In this document: positions 4,533 through 20,449 of the stretch, one piece after another
Layout of the letters: each line of letters opens with the position of its first letter
Numbering within the stretch: position 1 is the stretch's first letter
Assembly (NCBI GenBank): GCA_026390575.1
Contig: JAPLFR010000009.1
Coordinates: 124,001 to 188,000 of the forward strand
DNA length: 64,000 nt
Source: Ignavibacteriales bacterium
Lineage (GTDB): Bacteria; Bacteroidota; Ignavibacteria; UBA10030
Direction: 5' to 3'
Position numbers and translations under genes: made by a program
Notes under the pieces: generated by a model
The model's database searches: none
What the model saw: only the letters and a program-made list of their open reading frames with translations
What the model was told of the DNA's origin: nothing

Positions 4533-4796
4533 ATGTCCAACTCAACAATTGCACTTTTATTATTCATCGGAATTATCATTTCTCTGCTGACTGTCATTAT
4601 CTATACAATTGCACATAAAGACAAAAAAGATTTACAGCGGTCCGGCAGTTTTGCTTCAATGGCAGCATTGCATGATATGGGAGGAAAAGATGAACAGAAT
4701 GCAATTGAAACGGTGATAGAGCAGCAGGCAGAAAAGAAGTGGAAAGAACAAGAGAGTGGAGAAGAAAACAATCAAAATCGAGAAGACACAAAGTGA
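4533..4796 (+). CDS. Small single-pass membrane protein, unknown function
   Basis: 87 residues: a hydrophobic helix (about 5-27, LLLFIGIIISLLTVIIY) followed by a charged cytosolic or periplasmic tail rich in Glu, Lys, Gln and Asn. A short conserved-looking patch FASMAALHDMGGK follows the helix. Upstream GAGAGGAAAG is a good ribosome-binding site. It lies between the dnaK terminator and the disrupted region in front of clpB. I do not recognise the family. The regular composition, RBS and membrane helix argue that it is a real gene. Confidence 0.65.
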   Translation: MSNSTIALLLFIGIIISLLTVIIYTIAHKDKKDLQRSGSFASMAALHDMGGKDEQNAIETVIEQQAEKKWKEQESGEENNQNREDTK

Positions 4797-4837
4797 TGCA
4801 AAAACTAATCACTGATCACTATTAACTGATAACCGTT

Positions 4838-4891
4838 ATGAACTTTAATAAATTTACCATTAAATCTCAGGAAGCGGTGCAGAATATATAG
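4838..4891 (+). pseudogene. Orphan copy A of the clpB 5' end
   Basis: From ATG at 4838 the DNA matches the first ~54 bp of the intact clpB at 5798 and encodes [16 protein letters not shown] before an in-frame TAG. Differences from clpB are mainly third-position (AAC/AAT, TTT/TTC, ACC/ACA, GCG/GCT), so the copy is old enough to have drifted yet has stayed almost synonymous. It is directly followed by the palindromic element at 4899. Immediately upstream lies a period-7 tract (4803-4837: AATCACT, GATCACT, ATTAACT, GATAACC). Confidence 0.85.
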
Positions 4892-4898
4892 GGAAAAG

Positions 4899-5029
4899 AC
4901 TCCCTCTCCTTCAGGAGAGGGTCGGGGTGAGGTCAAAAAAAGAAAAAAATGACCCCATCCTATTGGAAATAGTCATGTGCATTCGCACATATTATTCTAG
5001 GCCTCCGGCTCCCTAAAGTGGAAGGAATT
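4899..5029. repeat. Palindromic element, copy 1 (left end L1 plus right end R1)
   Basis: The left part (4899-4935) has a perfect hairpin CCCTCTCCT/AGGAGAGGG then GTCGGGGTGAGGTCA. An A-rich spacer follows, then the right part (4950-5029): TGACCCCATCCT, a small TGTGC-attc-GCACA hairpin, and GGCTCCCTAAAGTGGAAGGA. Read on the opposite strand the right part (TCCTTCCACTTTAGGGAG...GGATGGGGTCA) resembles the left part, so the whole is an imperfect inverted repeat with ACTCC-type outer ends. The same left and right parts recur at 5600-5754, and the right part again at 5428-5508. Confidence 0.85.
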
Positions 5030-5061
5030 GTAAAAGAATAAAAACGTCAGAGTTAAGATCG

Positions 5062-5430
5062 TTGGGCAAGTATATTTTAAAATATCCACATCGCAATATT
5101 CAGACTGCAAGAATGTTGCGAAAGACAATGACCGATGTTGAACGAAAACTTTGGTCAAAGCTGCGATCTCACCAACTTGGTGTAAAATTTAGGCGTCAAG
5201 TTCCGTTCGGTAATTATATTGCTGATTTTATATCTCTTGAAGCACATCTTGTTATCGAGCTTGATGGTTACCAACATTATCAAGAGGATGCAATTAAACA
5301 GGATAAACTAAGAGATCAATATTTTACAAATGAAGGATTTACTGTGTTAAGATTTAACAATACGGAAGTGACTGAGAATATGGATGGTGTATTAGAAACA
5401 ATTTGGGAAAAATTACCGGATAAAAAATGA
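5062..5430 (+). CDS. DUF559-family endonuclease-like protein
   Basis: 122 residues from a TTG start at 5062 (a shorter ATG start at 5113 would drop 17 residues). It matches the DUF559 family, which has a Vsr/PD-(D/E)xK-like nuclease fold. Family landmarks are visible: MTDVERKLWSKLR near 23-35, the core KFRRQVPFGNYIADF near 43-57, LVIELDGYQH near 63-72 (putative catalytic Glu and Asp), and FTVLRFNN near 93-100. Biochemical function of DUF559 is not established. The gene is bracketed by palindromic element parts, and its stop codon TGA at 5428-5430 is itself the first bases of element part R2. That context suggests it is the cargo, or the mobility/cleavage protein, of the repeat family. Confidence 0.85.
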   Translation: MGKYILKYPHRNIQTARMLRKTMTDVERKLWSKLRSHQLGVKFRRQVPFGNYIADFISLEAHLVIELDGYQHYQEDAIKQDKLRDQYFTNEGFTVLRFNNTEVTENMDGVLETIWEKLPDKK

Positions 5431-5508
5431 CCCCATCCTGTCGAAAATAGTTATGTGCATTCGCACATGTTATTCTATGCCTCTGGCTCCCTACAGGGGA
5501 AGGAGTTG
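5428..5508. repeat. Palindromic element right part (R2) after the DUF559 gene
   Basis: Closely matches 4950-5029: TGACCCCATCCT, a TGTGCATTCGCACA hairpin, then CTCTGGCTCCCTACAGGGGAAGGAG. It begins at the DUF559 stop codon. No matching left part is seen between R1 and the DUF559 start, so this unit looks either composite or left-truncated. Confidence 0.8.
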
Positions 5509-5540
5509 ATTGTTGTTCTTTTTAAATATTAGAGGTAATC

Positions 5541-5594
5541 ATGAACTTCAATAAATTTATAATTAGATCTCAAGAAGCGGTTCAAAAAAATAGG
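5541..5594 (+). pseudogene. Orphan copy B of the clpB 5' end
   Basis: A second repeat of the clpB start (MNFNKFIIRSQEAVQK), preceded by AGAGGTAATC, the same 10 bp that precede the true clpB ATG. The frame stays open to 5741 but leaves clpB homology after ~17 codons and reads through the palindromic element, so it is not a functional ClpB. If translated it would give a 66-residue chimeric peptide. Differences from the intact gene include Thr7 to Ile and Lys9 to Arg, making this copy more diverged at protein level than copy A. Confidence 0.85.
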
Positions 5595-5599
5595 CAAAA

Positions 5600-5754
5600 A
5601 CTCCCTCTCCTTCAGGAGAGGGCCGGGGTGAGGTCATTATGTTATTGTATTTTGAAATATTTATCTGACAAAATGAATGACACAATCCTAGAAGTTGAAG
5701 TGGATTTCATCCGCCATATTATCAGGTCTCCGGCTCCCTAAAGAGGAAGAAGTT
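5600..5754. repeat. Palindromic element, copy 2 (L2 plus degenerate R3)
   Basis: L2 (5600-5636) is nearly identical to L1: CTCCCTCTCCTTCAGGAGAG then GGCCGGGGTGAGGTCA. The right part (about 5675-5754) is a decayed version of R1/R2: ATGACACAATCCT at the left and GTCTCCGGCTCCCTAAAGAGGAAGA at the right. The ~40 bp between them resemble no gene. It ends about 43 bp before the intact clpB start. Confidence 0.8.
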
Positions 5755-5797
5755 TTTTATTATGATTGTATAAAAGACCGAGTAAACAGAGGTAATC

Positions 5798-8431
5798 ATG
5801 AATTTCAATAAATTTACAATTAAATCTCAGGAAGCTGTGCAGAATGCACAGGAGATTGCATCAAGTTACAGCAATCAAGTTGTCGAACCAGAGCACTTGT
5901 TGGCGGCACTGGTGCAAGATAGCGAAGGCATCGTCGTGCCGATCCTGCAAAAACTTGGTACTAACGTTAACTATCTCAAAATAAAAATTAACGAGACGGT
6001 GGAACATTTGCCAAAAGTGCAAGGTTCCGGTCTCGGTAATCAACATATCTCACCTCAACTCGGGCAAGTTTTTGAATCTGCACAGCAGGAAGCGCAGCAG
6101 CTCAAAGATGAATATGTCAGCACCGAACATTTACTCCTGGGATTACTTGCAGCAAAGTCATCTGTGACGAAACTGTTAACTGATCAAGGTGTATCCAAAG
6201 AAAGTATTTACAAAGCGCTGAAAGATGTGCGCGGCACACAGCGTGTGACCGACCAGACTCCGGAGGATAAGTACCAATCTCTCGAGCGGTTTGGACGCGA
6301 CCTGAACGATCTCGCGCGTAAAGGCAAATTAGATCCGGTCATCGGACGCGAAGAAGAGATTCGTCGTGTACTTCAAGTGCTTTCACGCCGTACAAAGAAT
6401 AATCCAGTGCTTATTGGCGATCCGGGTGTCGGCAAAACAGCAATTGCAGAGGGTATTGCGCAGCGCATTGTGCAGGGCGATGTTCCAGAGAGTTTGAAAA
6501 CGAAGCGTATTATTGCACTCGATATGGGAACGCTGGTTGCAGGCACAAGCTTCCGTGGACAGTTTGAAGAACGCTTAAAGGCGGTCCTGAAAGAAGTAAC
6601 CGATTCGAACGGGGAAATTATTCTCTTCATCGATGAACTGCATACACTCGTTGGCGCTGGCGCAGCTCAGGGCTCCGTTGATGCGTCGAATATGCTGAAA
6701 CCGGCACTTGCACGCGGTGACTTGCGAGCCATTGGTGCCACGACTATTGATGAATATCGAAAATATATCGAGAAAGATCCTGCACTGGAACGGCGATTCC
6801 AACCGGTGCTTGTGGAAGAACCGACGGTGGAAGATACGATTTCTATTTTGCGCGGACTCAAAGAGCGGTATGAAGTGCATCACGGTGTACGTATCACGGA
6901 CGGCGCAATTGTTGCGGCAGCGCAGTTAAGCCACCGTTATATATCAGATCGCTTCCTGCCCGACAAGGCAATCGATTTAGTGGATGAAGCTGCCTCGAAA
7001 CTTCGCATGGAAATCGATTCGATGCCGGAAGAATTGGATGATGTTGAACGCCGAATCAAACAATTAGAAATTGAGCGTGAAGCGGTAAAGCGCGAGAAAG
7101 ATATTGACTCGAAATCTCGTTTGGGAGAAATCGAACACGAACTTGCCGACTTGAATCAAACTCGCTCCGAGTTGAAGGCGCACTGGCAGTTGGAAAAGGG
7201 ATTGATTCAATCCATCCGAAAAATGAAGGGAGATATTGACAACACAAAAAAGGATGCAGAACAACAAGAGCGGCAAGGCAATCTTGGCCGTGTGGCAGAA
7301 TTGCGTTACGGTGTTATTGCAGGATTAGAAAAGCAATTGAAGGAAGCATCGCTGAAATTGAACGAAGTACAAAAGACTCAAAAGATGCTGAAGGAAGAAG
7401 TCGATGCGGAAGATATTGCAGAAATTGTTGCAAAATGGACCGGCATTCCTGTCCAACGTATGTTAGAAAGCGATCGGACGAAGCTTCTCCATTTAGAAGA
7501 TCGGATTCATGAGAGGTTGATCGATCAGGAAGATGCTGTAAAAGCTGTGGCAGATGCAATTAGAAGAAGTCGTGCAGGATTGCAGGATGAACGGAAACCA
7601 ATAGGTTCGTTTATCTTCCTCGGCAGTACCGGCGTTGGGAAAACTGAATTGGCAAAAGCACTTGCTGAATTTCTTTTCAATGATGAAAATGCTGTTGTGC
7701 GGATTGATATGTCAGAATACATGGAAAAGTTTTCCGTATCGCGGCTAATCGGCGCACCGCCGGGGTATGTTGGTTACGAAGAAGGCGGTCAGTTAACAGA
7801 GGCAGTGCGGAGAAAACCGTACTCGGTTGTTCTTCTCGATGAGATTGAAAAAGCGCATCCGGAAGTGTTCAATGTCCTTTTACAATTGCTGGATGAAGGC
7901 AGGTTGACGGACAGCAAAGGGCGGACAGTGAATTTCAAAAACACCATCGTCATTATGACATCGAATCTTGGTTCTCAACTGATTCAAGAGAAGATGGATA
8001 CGTTGACAGAAGAGAATCGCGACGACCTGATGGGTGAACTGCGCGTACAGCTTCTTGAAATGCTCAGACAATCTGTGCGTCCGGAGTTTCTCAATCGCAT
8101 TGACGAGATCATTCTTTTCAAACCGCTCACAATGACTGAACTGGAAAAAATTGTCGAGCTGCAATTGCGACAAGTGCAGAAACTGGTGGCAGATAAGAAT
8201 ATTATATTAAATTTTACTGCTGAGGCGAAAGAGCGTCTTGCGACAATCGGATACGATCCAAGTTATGGTGCGCGGCCATTGAAACGAGTGATTCAAAAAT
8301 ATGTTATCAACATATTATCAGAAAAACTTCTTTCCGGTGACGTTGTGGATGGAGATACGGTTGAGATTGGCACAGATAACCGCGGGATGATTGCGTTCGT
8401 GAAAAAAGTGAAACCGGAATCATTGAAATAA
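5798..8431 (+). CDS. clpB: ATP-dependent disaggregase ClpB
   Basis: Hexameric AAA+ machine that pulls polypeptides out of aggregates together with DnaK. At 877 residues it is full length. Order of parts: Clp-N repeats (1-145); first AAA+ with Walker [14 protein letters not shown] (about 203-215) and Walker [12 protein letters not shown] (about 275-285); the coiled-coil M domain (about 405-525), which separates ClpB from ClpA/ClpC; second AAA+ with [15 protein letters not shown] (about 606-620) and [12 protein letters not shown] (about 675-686); and a C-terminal D2-small domain. No ClpP-binding IGF loop is evident, as expected for ClpB. The start ATG has AGAGGT upstream. The 5' side is disrupted by two extra clpB-start copies and palindromic elements, so its promoter must lie in or beyond that region. 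Confidence 0.98.
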
Positions 8432-18559: not shown

Positions 18560-20449
18560 TCAATTGATTGTCAAACCAAAGAGCGATAACGGAAAATCTG
18601 TTTCTACCTTTGTCCAAGTGGTCCCGCCGTTTGTCGTTCTCAGAATTGTTCCTCCAGCTCCGACGATGATGCCAAGGTTTTCATCGAAGAATTGGACTGA
18701 ACGCAAATCACTGGCAGATTGACCCTCAATCGCAGTCCACTTTGTTCCGCCATCCTGTGTACGTAAAATCGTTCCCTCAGTTCCAACGACGAATACATTT
18801 GCTGAGTCGATAGAGTAAGCATTAAACAATTCCTTTGTCGTTCCGCTCGCTTGTGATATCCACGTTTTGCCGTTGTTTGTAGAGCGAAGAATTATTCCGT
18901 CTCCACCGACTACAATGGATGTAGATTGAGAAAGAAGCACGACAGCATTTAACCAATTTGCCGTTCCGCTTTCCTGCAATGTCCATGTCGTTCCGCCATC
19001 GCTCGTCCCGATAATTGTTCCCATTGCCCCGATGGAAATACCGGTTTTGCTGTCAACAAATGCAATATCGCGCAGATGGTTAATTGTACCTGACGGCTGT
19101 TTGTTCCATGTGGTACCGCCGTTCGTTGTTCTCAGCATAAGGCCATAATCACCAACGACTATTCCGGAATCTTTGCTTGTGAAGCATGATCGGAATAATG
19201 GTCTGGTGGTTGTACTCAGTTGAGTCGTCCAAGTCGCTCCAGCGTCGTTCGTACGGAGAATAATGCCGCTGTTTCCCACAGCAGTAGCACTCGTTTGGTC
19301 AATCGCTGTGATTGCCATAAGTGTATTCTCGCTTGTGCCGACGATCTTCGACCAGGTCGTACCGAAATCTTTAGATTGGAGAATCATGCCATTCGCTCCA
19401 ACGCCGGTTGCAATATTACTTTTTGGAAATCCACCAGGTGGTTTTGTTGTCGCTTCCTGCACGATTGGTTTTTGCAACACCGGTGTCATAGCATTCCATG
19501 TAACTGCACCATCCGTTGTTCGAATAATAGTTTGTTGACCCCCAACTGCAACGCCAACTTTCGTATTAGCAAATGCCACTGCAATAAATGTGCTGCGGGT
19601 GGAATTCGTTTGCTTCAGCCAATTTGGTTCTCTTAAATAGGAGGTAAGAATTGTTGCAGAACTCCCTACGGCGATAGAAAAGTTTGAGGAGGGAAGAACC
19701 GTACAAAAAAGTGTTTGTGCAATGCCGCTCGGTTCTAATGTCCAGCTTATGCCGGCATTCGATGTATGAAGAATTGTTCCGTTTTGACCGACGATGATTC
19801 CATTATTCGATCCGTTAAAAGCAACGGAGTAAAAATTATAAGTGATGAAAGAAGAAGATAGATTTGTCCATGTAGTTCCATCATCTGTTGTGCGGAGAAT
19901 TATTCCGTGGTCACCGACGGCGATTCCTGTTTTGTTGTCCAGCAAGACAACACTGTTGAGATTGACACGAACGCCGCTTGTCTGCATGAACCAATTGTTC
20001 CCGCCATCGAGAGAATGATAGATGACACCATTCTCACCAACAGCAGTACCGGTCGTCCCATTACTGAAGAAGATTGAGCGCAGGGTTTCTTTTGCATTGA
20101 TGAGTTGGTTGGTCCAGGATGTTCCGCCATTTGTTGTCATAAGAAGAACACCGTTTGCCCCGACAGCAAATCCACGCGCTGAAGTTGTAAAAGCTACTCC
20201 GTTCAACGGAGTCGTTATGTTGTTGATAGTGCGCCACATTGACCACGTGCTGCCCATGTCGGTAGAACGTGCAACAGTTCCGCTATCGCCAACGGCAATA
20301 ACGGTGTTTGCATCTGCAAATGTTATTGCTCGCAGTGATACTCCCTCCGACGGCGTGTTCTGAGAATAGACGATCTTCCATCCAGCTAAATTCATGATCC
20401 AGCACATGCAGATCAGCAGCCATGGAATTTTTCGTTTATGCCTTTGCAT
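18560..20449 (-). CDS. Secreted Ycf48/Hcf136-like beta-propeller repeat protein
   Basis: 629 residues: a signal peptide (about 1-29, cleavage near VYSQN), then about fourteen repeats of 42-45 residues. Each repeat has the pattern AVG..G.I.RT.DGG.TW (for example AVGDSGTVARSTDMGSTW and IVGAGGTILRTTNGGTTW). These are BNR/Ycf48-type blades, so the chain probably folds into two seven-bladed propellers. One repeat (around 265-280) is degenerate. There is no T9SS sorting domain at the C-terminus (ends SLFGLTIN). In photosynthetic organisms Ycf48 assists photosystem II, but in this kind of bacterium the function is unknown. It sits just downstream of ruvB on the same strand, 24 bp apart. Confidence 0.8.
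   Translation of the reverse strand: MQRHKRKIPWLLICMCWIMNLAGWKIVYSQNTPSEGVSLRAITFADANTVIAVGDSGTVARSTDMGSTWSMWRTINNITTPLNGVAFTTSARGFAVGANGVLLMTTNGGTSWTNQLINAKETLRSIFFSNGTTGTAVGENGVIYHSLDGGNNWFMQTSGVRVNLNSVVLLDNKTGIAVGDHGIILRTTDDGTTWTNLSSSFITYNFYSVAFNGSNNGIIVGQNGTILHTSNAGISWTLEPSGIAQTLFCTVLPSSNFSIAVGSSATILTSYLREPNWLKQTNSTRSTFIAVAFANTKVGVAVGGQQTIIRTTDGAVTWNAMTPVLQKPIVQEATTKPPGGFPKSNIATGVGANGMILQSKDFGTTWSKIVGTSENTLMAITAIDQTSATAVGNSGIILRTNDAGATWTTQLSTTTRPLFRSCFTSKDSGIVVGDYGLMLRTTNGGTTWNKQPSGTINHLRDIAFVDSKTGISIGAMGTIIGTSDGGTTWTLQESGTANWLNAVVLLSQSTSIVVGGDGIILRSTNNGKTWISQASGTTKELFNAYSIDSANVFVVGTEGTILRTQDGGTKWTAIEGQSASDLRSVQFFDENLGIIVGAGGTILRTTNGGTTWTKVETDFPLSLFGLTIN

Follow-up and report, generated by a model that had tools for sequence, protein, structure and literature searches.

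Small cassettes between intact and displaced gene ends at clpB and other loci of Ignavibacteria

We analysed a window of 64,000 nucleotides (positions 124,001 to 188,000 of JAPLFR010000009.1, a 404 kb contig of the 3.82 Mb, 16-contig Ignavibacteriales assembly GCA_026390575.1) in which the start of clpB occurs three times, twice as a displaced fragment and once as part of the intact gene, with a nuclease-like DUF559 gene between the first two copies. The same layout, a small cassette between a displaced and an intact copy of a gene end, recurs at clpB in related genomes and extends to the 5' and 3' ends of other genes and to other cargo, and the paired ends differ predominantly by synonymous changes. 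We give a slightly better than even chance to the explanation that incoming DNA is joined through homology on just one side, taking the place of the gene end while the native end is displaced.

Three clpB starts and the repeats that separate them

On the forward strand this part of the window reads, in order, dnaK, upA, clpB-start copy A, hairpin L1, repeat R1, the DUF559 gene, repeat R2, clpB-start copy B, hairpin L2, an R-like stretch, and intact clpB. A repeat search placed the three starts in register as a 57-nt family (4828-4884, 5531-5587, and 5788-5844), the first and third being 72% and 88% identical to the middle one, and thereby recovered the copies at 4838, 5541, and 5798 described in an earlier reading made from the letters alone (hereafter the sequence-only reading). 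Copy A (4838..4884), in which a stop codon follows soon after codon 17, adjoins native upstream DNA and is presumably the native clpB start; its neighbour upA (4533..4796), an 87-aa open reading frame (ORF) without a Pfam family located 3' of dnaK, is the native upstream neighbour of clpB. Copy B (5531..5587, ATG at 5541) is presumably the start that worked between two insertions. Copy C is intact clpB (5798-8431; 5788..8431 with its 10 preceding bases), an 877-aa ORF with ClpB domains. These 10 bases before the ATG are, as had been claimed, common to copies B and C and differ in copy A. The further claim that the copies differ mostly synonymously stands for A and C (4 synonymous and 0 nonsynonymous differences over 15 codons, not counting the ATG or the final two at the break) and is weaker for B and C, where both kinds are present.

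The DUF559 gene (5062..5430), which had previously gone unmentioned, lies between copies A and B, and its product matches PF04480 (1.9e-36) and the restriction-endonuclease (REase) Pfam family MTES_1575 (8.3e-10), with weak matches to endonuclease families among the PHROGs, including a homing-endonuclease PHROG (5.4e-4). We take DUF559 to group with the Vsr-like nucleases. No transposase or integrase frame was found among the ORFs at 4838-5797, where DUF559 was the only gene identified, and a PADLOC search returned nothing beyond one weak DpdF match. The repeat search also confirmed the two hairpins near clpB, L1 (4892..4935) and L2 (5593..5636), which are 93% identical, and located R1 (4944..5030) and R2 (5422..5508, overlapping the end of the DUF559 gene), which are 89% identical, as well as the shorter R-like stretch R3 (5724..5754, family D3). 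The L pattern gave 2 matches in the window versus none in 100 shuffles. Single-strand folding of L and R is unremarkable (z -0.82 to -1.76; L1, not strong, at -1.46 and L2 at -1.76). Hairpin L (4900-4934, 5601-5635) resembles the Rfam whalefall-1 RNA below the cut-off (20.3 of 37 bits), and the two may have a common repeat origin.

The sequence-only reading had credited an L/R element with leaving a duplication of about 60 bp, and had named L/R copies without a flanking duplication as its refuter. From 30 L loci we tested 28 distinct ones (L072 and L088 were left out, L not being at the expected position). Five, in clpB arrays, show flanking repeats, and at all 23 tested loci away from clpB no flanking repeat of at least 28 nt was found. 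Together with a clpB array in genome G004 that shows the duplication and has no L match, these 23 loci rule out L/R as the maker of the duplication. Several L loci of G001 and G003 (L053-L056, L046, and L049) appear by eye to be elements of ~150-200 bp, with L and R hairpins inside apparent inverted ends (GTAACT..CTGAGTAGTTAC), resembling miniature inverted-repeat transposable elements. An assembly artefact is an unlikely source of the clpB array because separately assembled sister genomes carry other versions of the layout.

Recurrence at clpB and at other gene ends

Of the 98 genomes of the order, 78 had a match in a DNA search for clpB, the weakest probably by chance. The DNA upstream of clpB was examined in 71 of these 78, and since only 64 of these loci have at least 1000 upstream bases, some start copies could be missed. 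An extra clpB start scoring above 200 shuffles is present at 7 of the 71 loci, in five of the six genomes of the window's genus (G000, the window's own, G001, G002, G004, and G005) and in G048 and G063, which belong to other genera in another family. This recurrence supports the earlier proposal of insertion at the clpB 5' end, more than once, with a complete reading frame kept downstream. In all seven cases the best extra copy starts at the ATG, the sequence before it being unlike, and the displaced copies break off within approximately codons 10-20. The copies are separated by hairpins without DUF559 (G001, G002, G063), by hairpins and DUF559 (G000, G005, G048), or by a DUF433 gene fragment (G004). 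Start copies are absent from G003, the sixth genus member, which carries an HNH gene and another frame upstream of clpB, and from G084, which carries a DUF559 gene there; an HNH gene (G020) and a SIR2-like gene (G052) occupy the same position elsewhere. In some outgroups, as in G024, the upA end meets the clpB ATG, and the G024 arrangement is taken as the empty state of the site. The dnaK-clpB interval is an insertion hot spot with varied cargo (G003, G005, G009, G020, G052, and G084), namely HNH, DUF5677, DUF433 or nuclease-like, SIR2-like, and DUF559 frames.

An identical product would be expected from a single crossover of a circular form bearing the gene end as its attachment sequence, with homologous or site-specific recombination supplied in trans, and clpB-start sequence adjoining L is indeed found away from clpB in G002 (C71:242-285) and G005 (C91, C184). 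We judge this very improbable, given a window insertion devoid of integrase or transposase frames, cargo that differs among insertions at one site, and displaced copies that end at varying points.

DUF559 is present in 55 of the 98 genomes. By our curation, the nuclease-like gene at 14 of 106 DUF559 loci is flanked by an intact gene end on one side and a displaced copy of it on the other. Ten of these are 5' ends (clpB at three loci, a Ser/Thr kinase start at three, a 133-aa gene at two, uvrA, and a membrane-protein-like gene) and four are 3' ends (serS, sodC, a 74-aa gene, and a PF20603 gene), the names uvrA, serS, and kinase being our own reading of the sequences. The earlier comparison of the clpB insertion, in its effect, with elements restoring the ends of the genes they target is upheld and reaches further than the one gene. 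The two uvrA copies in G011 have an identity of 0.82, and the PF20603 gene of the window's own genome has two extra copies of its 3' end. That same genome also has an orphan start of the 133-aa gene (L306, C8), at about base 918 after the gene start and downstream of the intact copy.

The starting set comprised 119 DUF559 loci, from which L169 (the same locus as L045), L118, and loci with fewer than 200 bases on one side were excluded; for the ParE control, 3 of 30 loci were excluded for short flanks. An automatic rule asking for 60% conserved codons was passed by 21 of 106 DUF559 loci, 3 of 27 ParE loci, and 6 of 177 random window positions. Curation kept 12 of the 21 and dropped nine as hairpin repeats or doubtful frames (L003, L197, L206, L207, L238, L250, L253, L262, and L267), while L185 and L209 were added by hand; neither L236 (a repeated ORF6N-like gene) nor L212 (similar genes) entered the count. 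The layout is commoner than at random positions, yet no commoner than beside ParE, another selfish gene family. When all three ParE matches were inspected, L292 proved genuine (77 bases of a gene's 3' end), and L275 and L300 were not gene ends. Two 198-base repeats, 96% alike, flank a toxin gene pair at L275 (G007, C14) and give the impression of integron attC sites. All six random-control matches are one repeat within a reading frame near 19.1-19.4 kb (window 19100-20100).

Because ParE toxin loci also show the layout, DUF559 is not required for it. Both kinds of cargo occur in series at serS of G052 (serS, DUF559, serS end, antitoxin/ParE pair, serS end), and in G005 a DUF5677 gene stands between two copies of the upA end. 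These observations bear on a reading in which DUF559 drives homing: a conserved, empty gene end would be cut, repair would copy the cassette and the adjoining end from a carrier, and recutting of the restored end would give rise to arrays. Consistent with this, DUF559 occurs in clpB arrays of two families (G000, G005, and G048), its matches include restriction and, weakly, homing endonucleases, the points at which the displaced clpB copies break off fall within a limited stretch, and the cassettes of G001 and G003 are closer to each other (11 reading-frame differences, counted by hand) than is the host gene body (7%). The same layout is found, on the other hand, with a ParE pair and with a DUF433 fragment as cargo, the ParE loci are not poorer in it under the same rule, and no gene-end copy was recognised by eye in eight distantly related named DUF559 loci (the repeats at L326 and L327 were not checked for reading frames). 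We regard homing by DUF559 as unlikely. Its general form is similarly doubtful, namely that DUF559 proteins could be homing endonucleases of bacteria, cutting essential genes at their conserved ends and supplying a substitute end that lets the host gene survive, with arrays arising as the restored site is recut and with other selfish cassettes, such as toxin-antitoxin pairs, sharing the route. If true, selection on the host gene would keep gene ends available as landing sites in the chromosome.

Synonymous divergence and the source of the working end

Across 17 pairs of copies from the 14 DUF559 loci there are 107 synonymous versus 58 nonsynonymous codon differences (65%, 107/165), 135 of 199 base changes fall in third positions, and the displaced copies contain one stop within the compared codons, the ATG and the two codons at the break having been excluded throughout. 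A null model in which identical copies diverge, one decaying freely and the other changing only synonymously, gave a mean synonymous share of 33% and a maximum of 49% in 1000 simulations. This test is pooled, and single loci may differ; the only locus with the opposite trend is L006 (1 to 4), the PF20603 copies having 1 synonymous and 4 nonsynonymous differences over two pairs. The pairs were chosen for looking like gene ends, though they were first drawn from a DNA-level search, and adding back three dropped pairs (L197, L253, and L267) gives 109 versus 67, a set for which the null was not rerun. Conservation of a leader peptide was rejected as the sole cause of the synonymous bias, since the 3' copies of serS, sodC, and the 74-aa gene share it.

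A simple rival is insertion with a long target-site duplication, in which approximately 50-130 bp of host DNA is doubled and the unused copy decays. Long direct repeats of host DNA do surround the inserts (in the window and at the clpB and DUF559 loci), the layout fits that reported for restriction-modification genes in PMC1643837 and PMC3031569, and the clpB copies of G001 are 96% alike. Against a decayed target-site duplication stands the mainly synonymous divergence of the copies, which in the pooled test is not what a single host sequence would be expected to yield; in addition, the copies begin at the ATG and differ in the sequence before it at 7/7 clpB loci, and the intact ends look foreign at two loci. 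We consider this reading distinctly unlikely, and as a general explanation plain target duplication with decay is rejected, the observed synonymous share exceeding the simulated maximum.

Import of the working end is suggested by two loci and is not a general observation. In the 133-aa gene, the intact G001 copy has, over its first 39 codons (117 nt), 9 differences from G004 and 17 from the intact copy of G003, while the gene body of G001 is 18% from G004 and 7% from G003; because its end nears G004 and its body nears G003, the working start of G001 looks borrowed. At the upA gene of G005, it is the displaced end, and not the intact one, that aligns more closely with G004 and G002, and also with G000 over the full length.

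Several points weigh against import. The intact 133-aa end of G001 is just 12 nt from the displaced copy of G003, and the displaced copy of G001 is 16 from G004, 14 from the G003 intact copy, and 13 from the G003 displaced copy, a small difference. For upA of G005 the intact end is favoured by G001 and, over the core, by G000, with G003 about even. In 6/6 comparisons for sodC of G028, other genomes are closer to the intact end than to the extra copy, which is frameshifted and may simply have decayed. The clpB ends are too short to decide, distances within the genus favouring neither copy, and the kinase ends could derive from paralogues. The automatic rule, moreover, is biased towards conserved codons, and neither a donor allele nor a transfer event was observed. 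The case for import draws more on the pooled codon pattern than on single trees.

We infer a one-sided recombination, in which small selfish cassettes would use the clpB start as a landing site. The DNA bringing in a cassette would stem from a related lineage in which the cassette already lies next to that gene. This DNA would recombine by homology with the resident gene on the gene side, and its far side would be attached, without homology, within the resident gene end. That resident end (approximately the first 10-20 codons of clpB) would stay as a scar, while the incoming end, with its own sequence before the ATG, would take over as the working start. As a complete gene end always remains, insertion can recur, and repeated events at clpB in the window would have followed the order A, B, C. 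The DUF559 nuclease may assist by cutting the empty gene end, a step that the layout would not require.

Such a mechanism, if true, would explain how selfish genes settle harmlessly beside essential genes without an integrase of their own. Its signature of displaced end, cassette, and restored end could be scanned for in any genome, and a role for DUF559 (a family of unknown function in Pfam) would become directly testable. Some housekeeping genes would then begin or end with foreign codons, a point of consequence for gene trees and start-site annotation.

Comparison with known systems

Among open-licence papers mentioning DUF559, titles and the beginnings of abstracts indicated none on this layout, and listings from the searched open-licence literature, including clpB together with homing endonuclease, gave no description of the clpB case. 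Restriction-modification genes insert with long target duplication (Nobusato et al. 2000, cited in PMC1643837 and PMC3031569) and likewise have long direct repeats of host DNA on either side of nuclease-related cargo; here the copies are diverged, coding-biased, and tied to gene ends, and the cargo can be non-nuclease.

Joining that is homologous on one side and non-homologous on the other has been reported for three competent species and for conjugation in E. coli (PMC3240628). In Helicobacter pylori ELS37, a 1577-bp duplication around an integrative and conjugative element (ICE) is attributed by its authors to one-sided recombination, with a homologous right junction and a non-homologous left one, so that part of a gene is doubled around the insert (PMC4615327). 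That is a single large case in which a gene split by the ICE was repaired, whereas here small cassettes occur at many loci and at gene ends. For immunity arrays of the type VI secretion system, serial displacement akin to homology-facilitated illegitimate recombination has been proposed, with a one-sided homology anchor, displaced old parts, and arrays of leftovers (PMC5361080); those toxin modules change the product, while here a housekeeping gene is restored.

The closest precedent overall, by analogy, is provided by fungal mitochondrial endonuclease elements that carry gene ends. These mobile endonuclease ORFs (mORFs) form hybrid genes in Allomyces (atp6) and Glomus (atp6, atp9, cox2, and nad3) (PMC3630166). 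They concern C-terminal ends, mitochondria, and LAGLIDADG or GIY-YIG enzymes with an established role (PMC3630166), whereas the clpB-type cassettes, described here from sequence, concern 5' and 3' ends, bacterial chromosomes, and DUF559 or other cargo. In both systems an endonuclease ORF can stand beside a gene end with a displaced counterpart; in the mORFs the adjoining end is foreign, the displaced native end clusters with that of a sister species, and the differences between ends are, as here, largely synonymous (PMC3630166).

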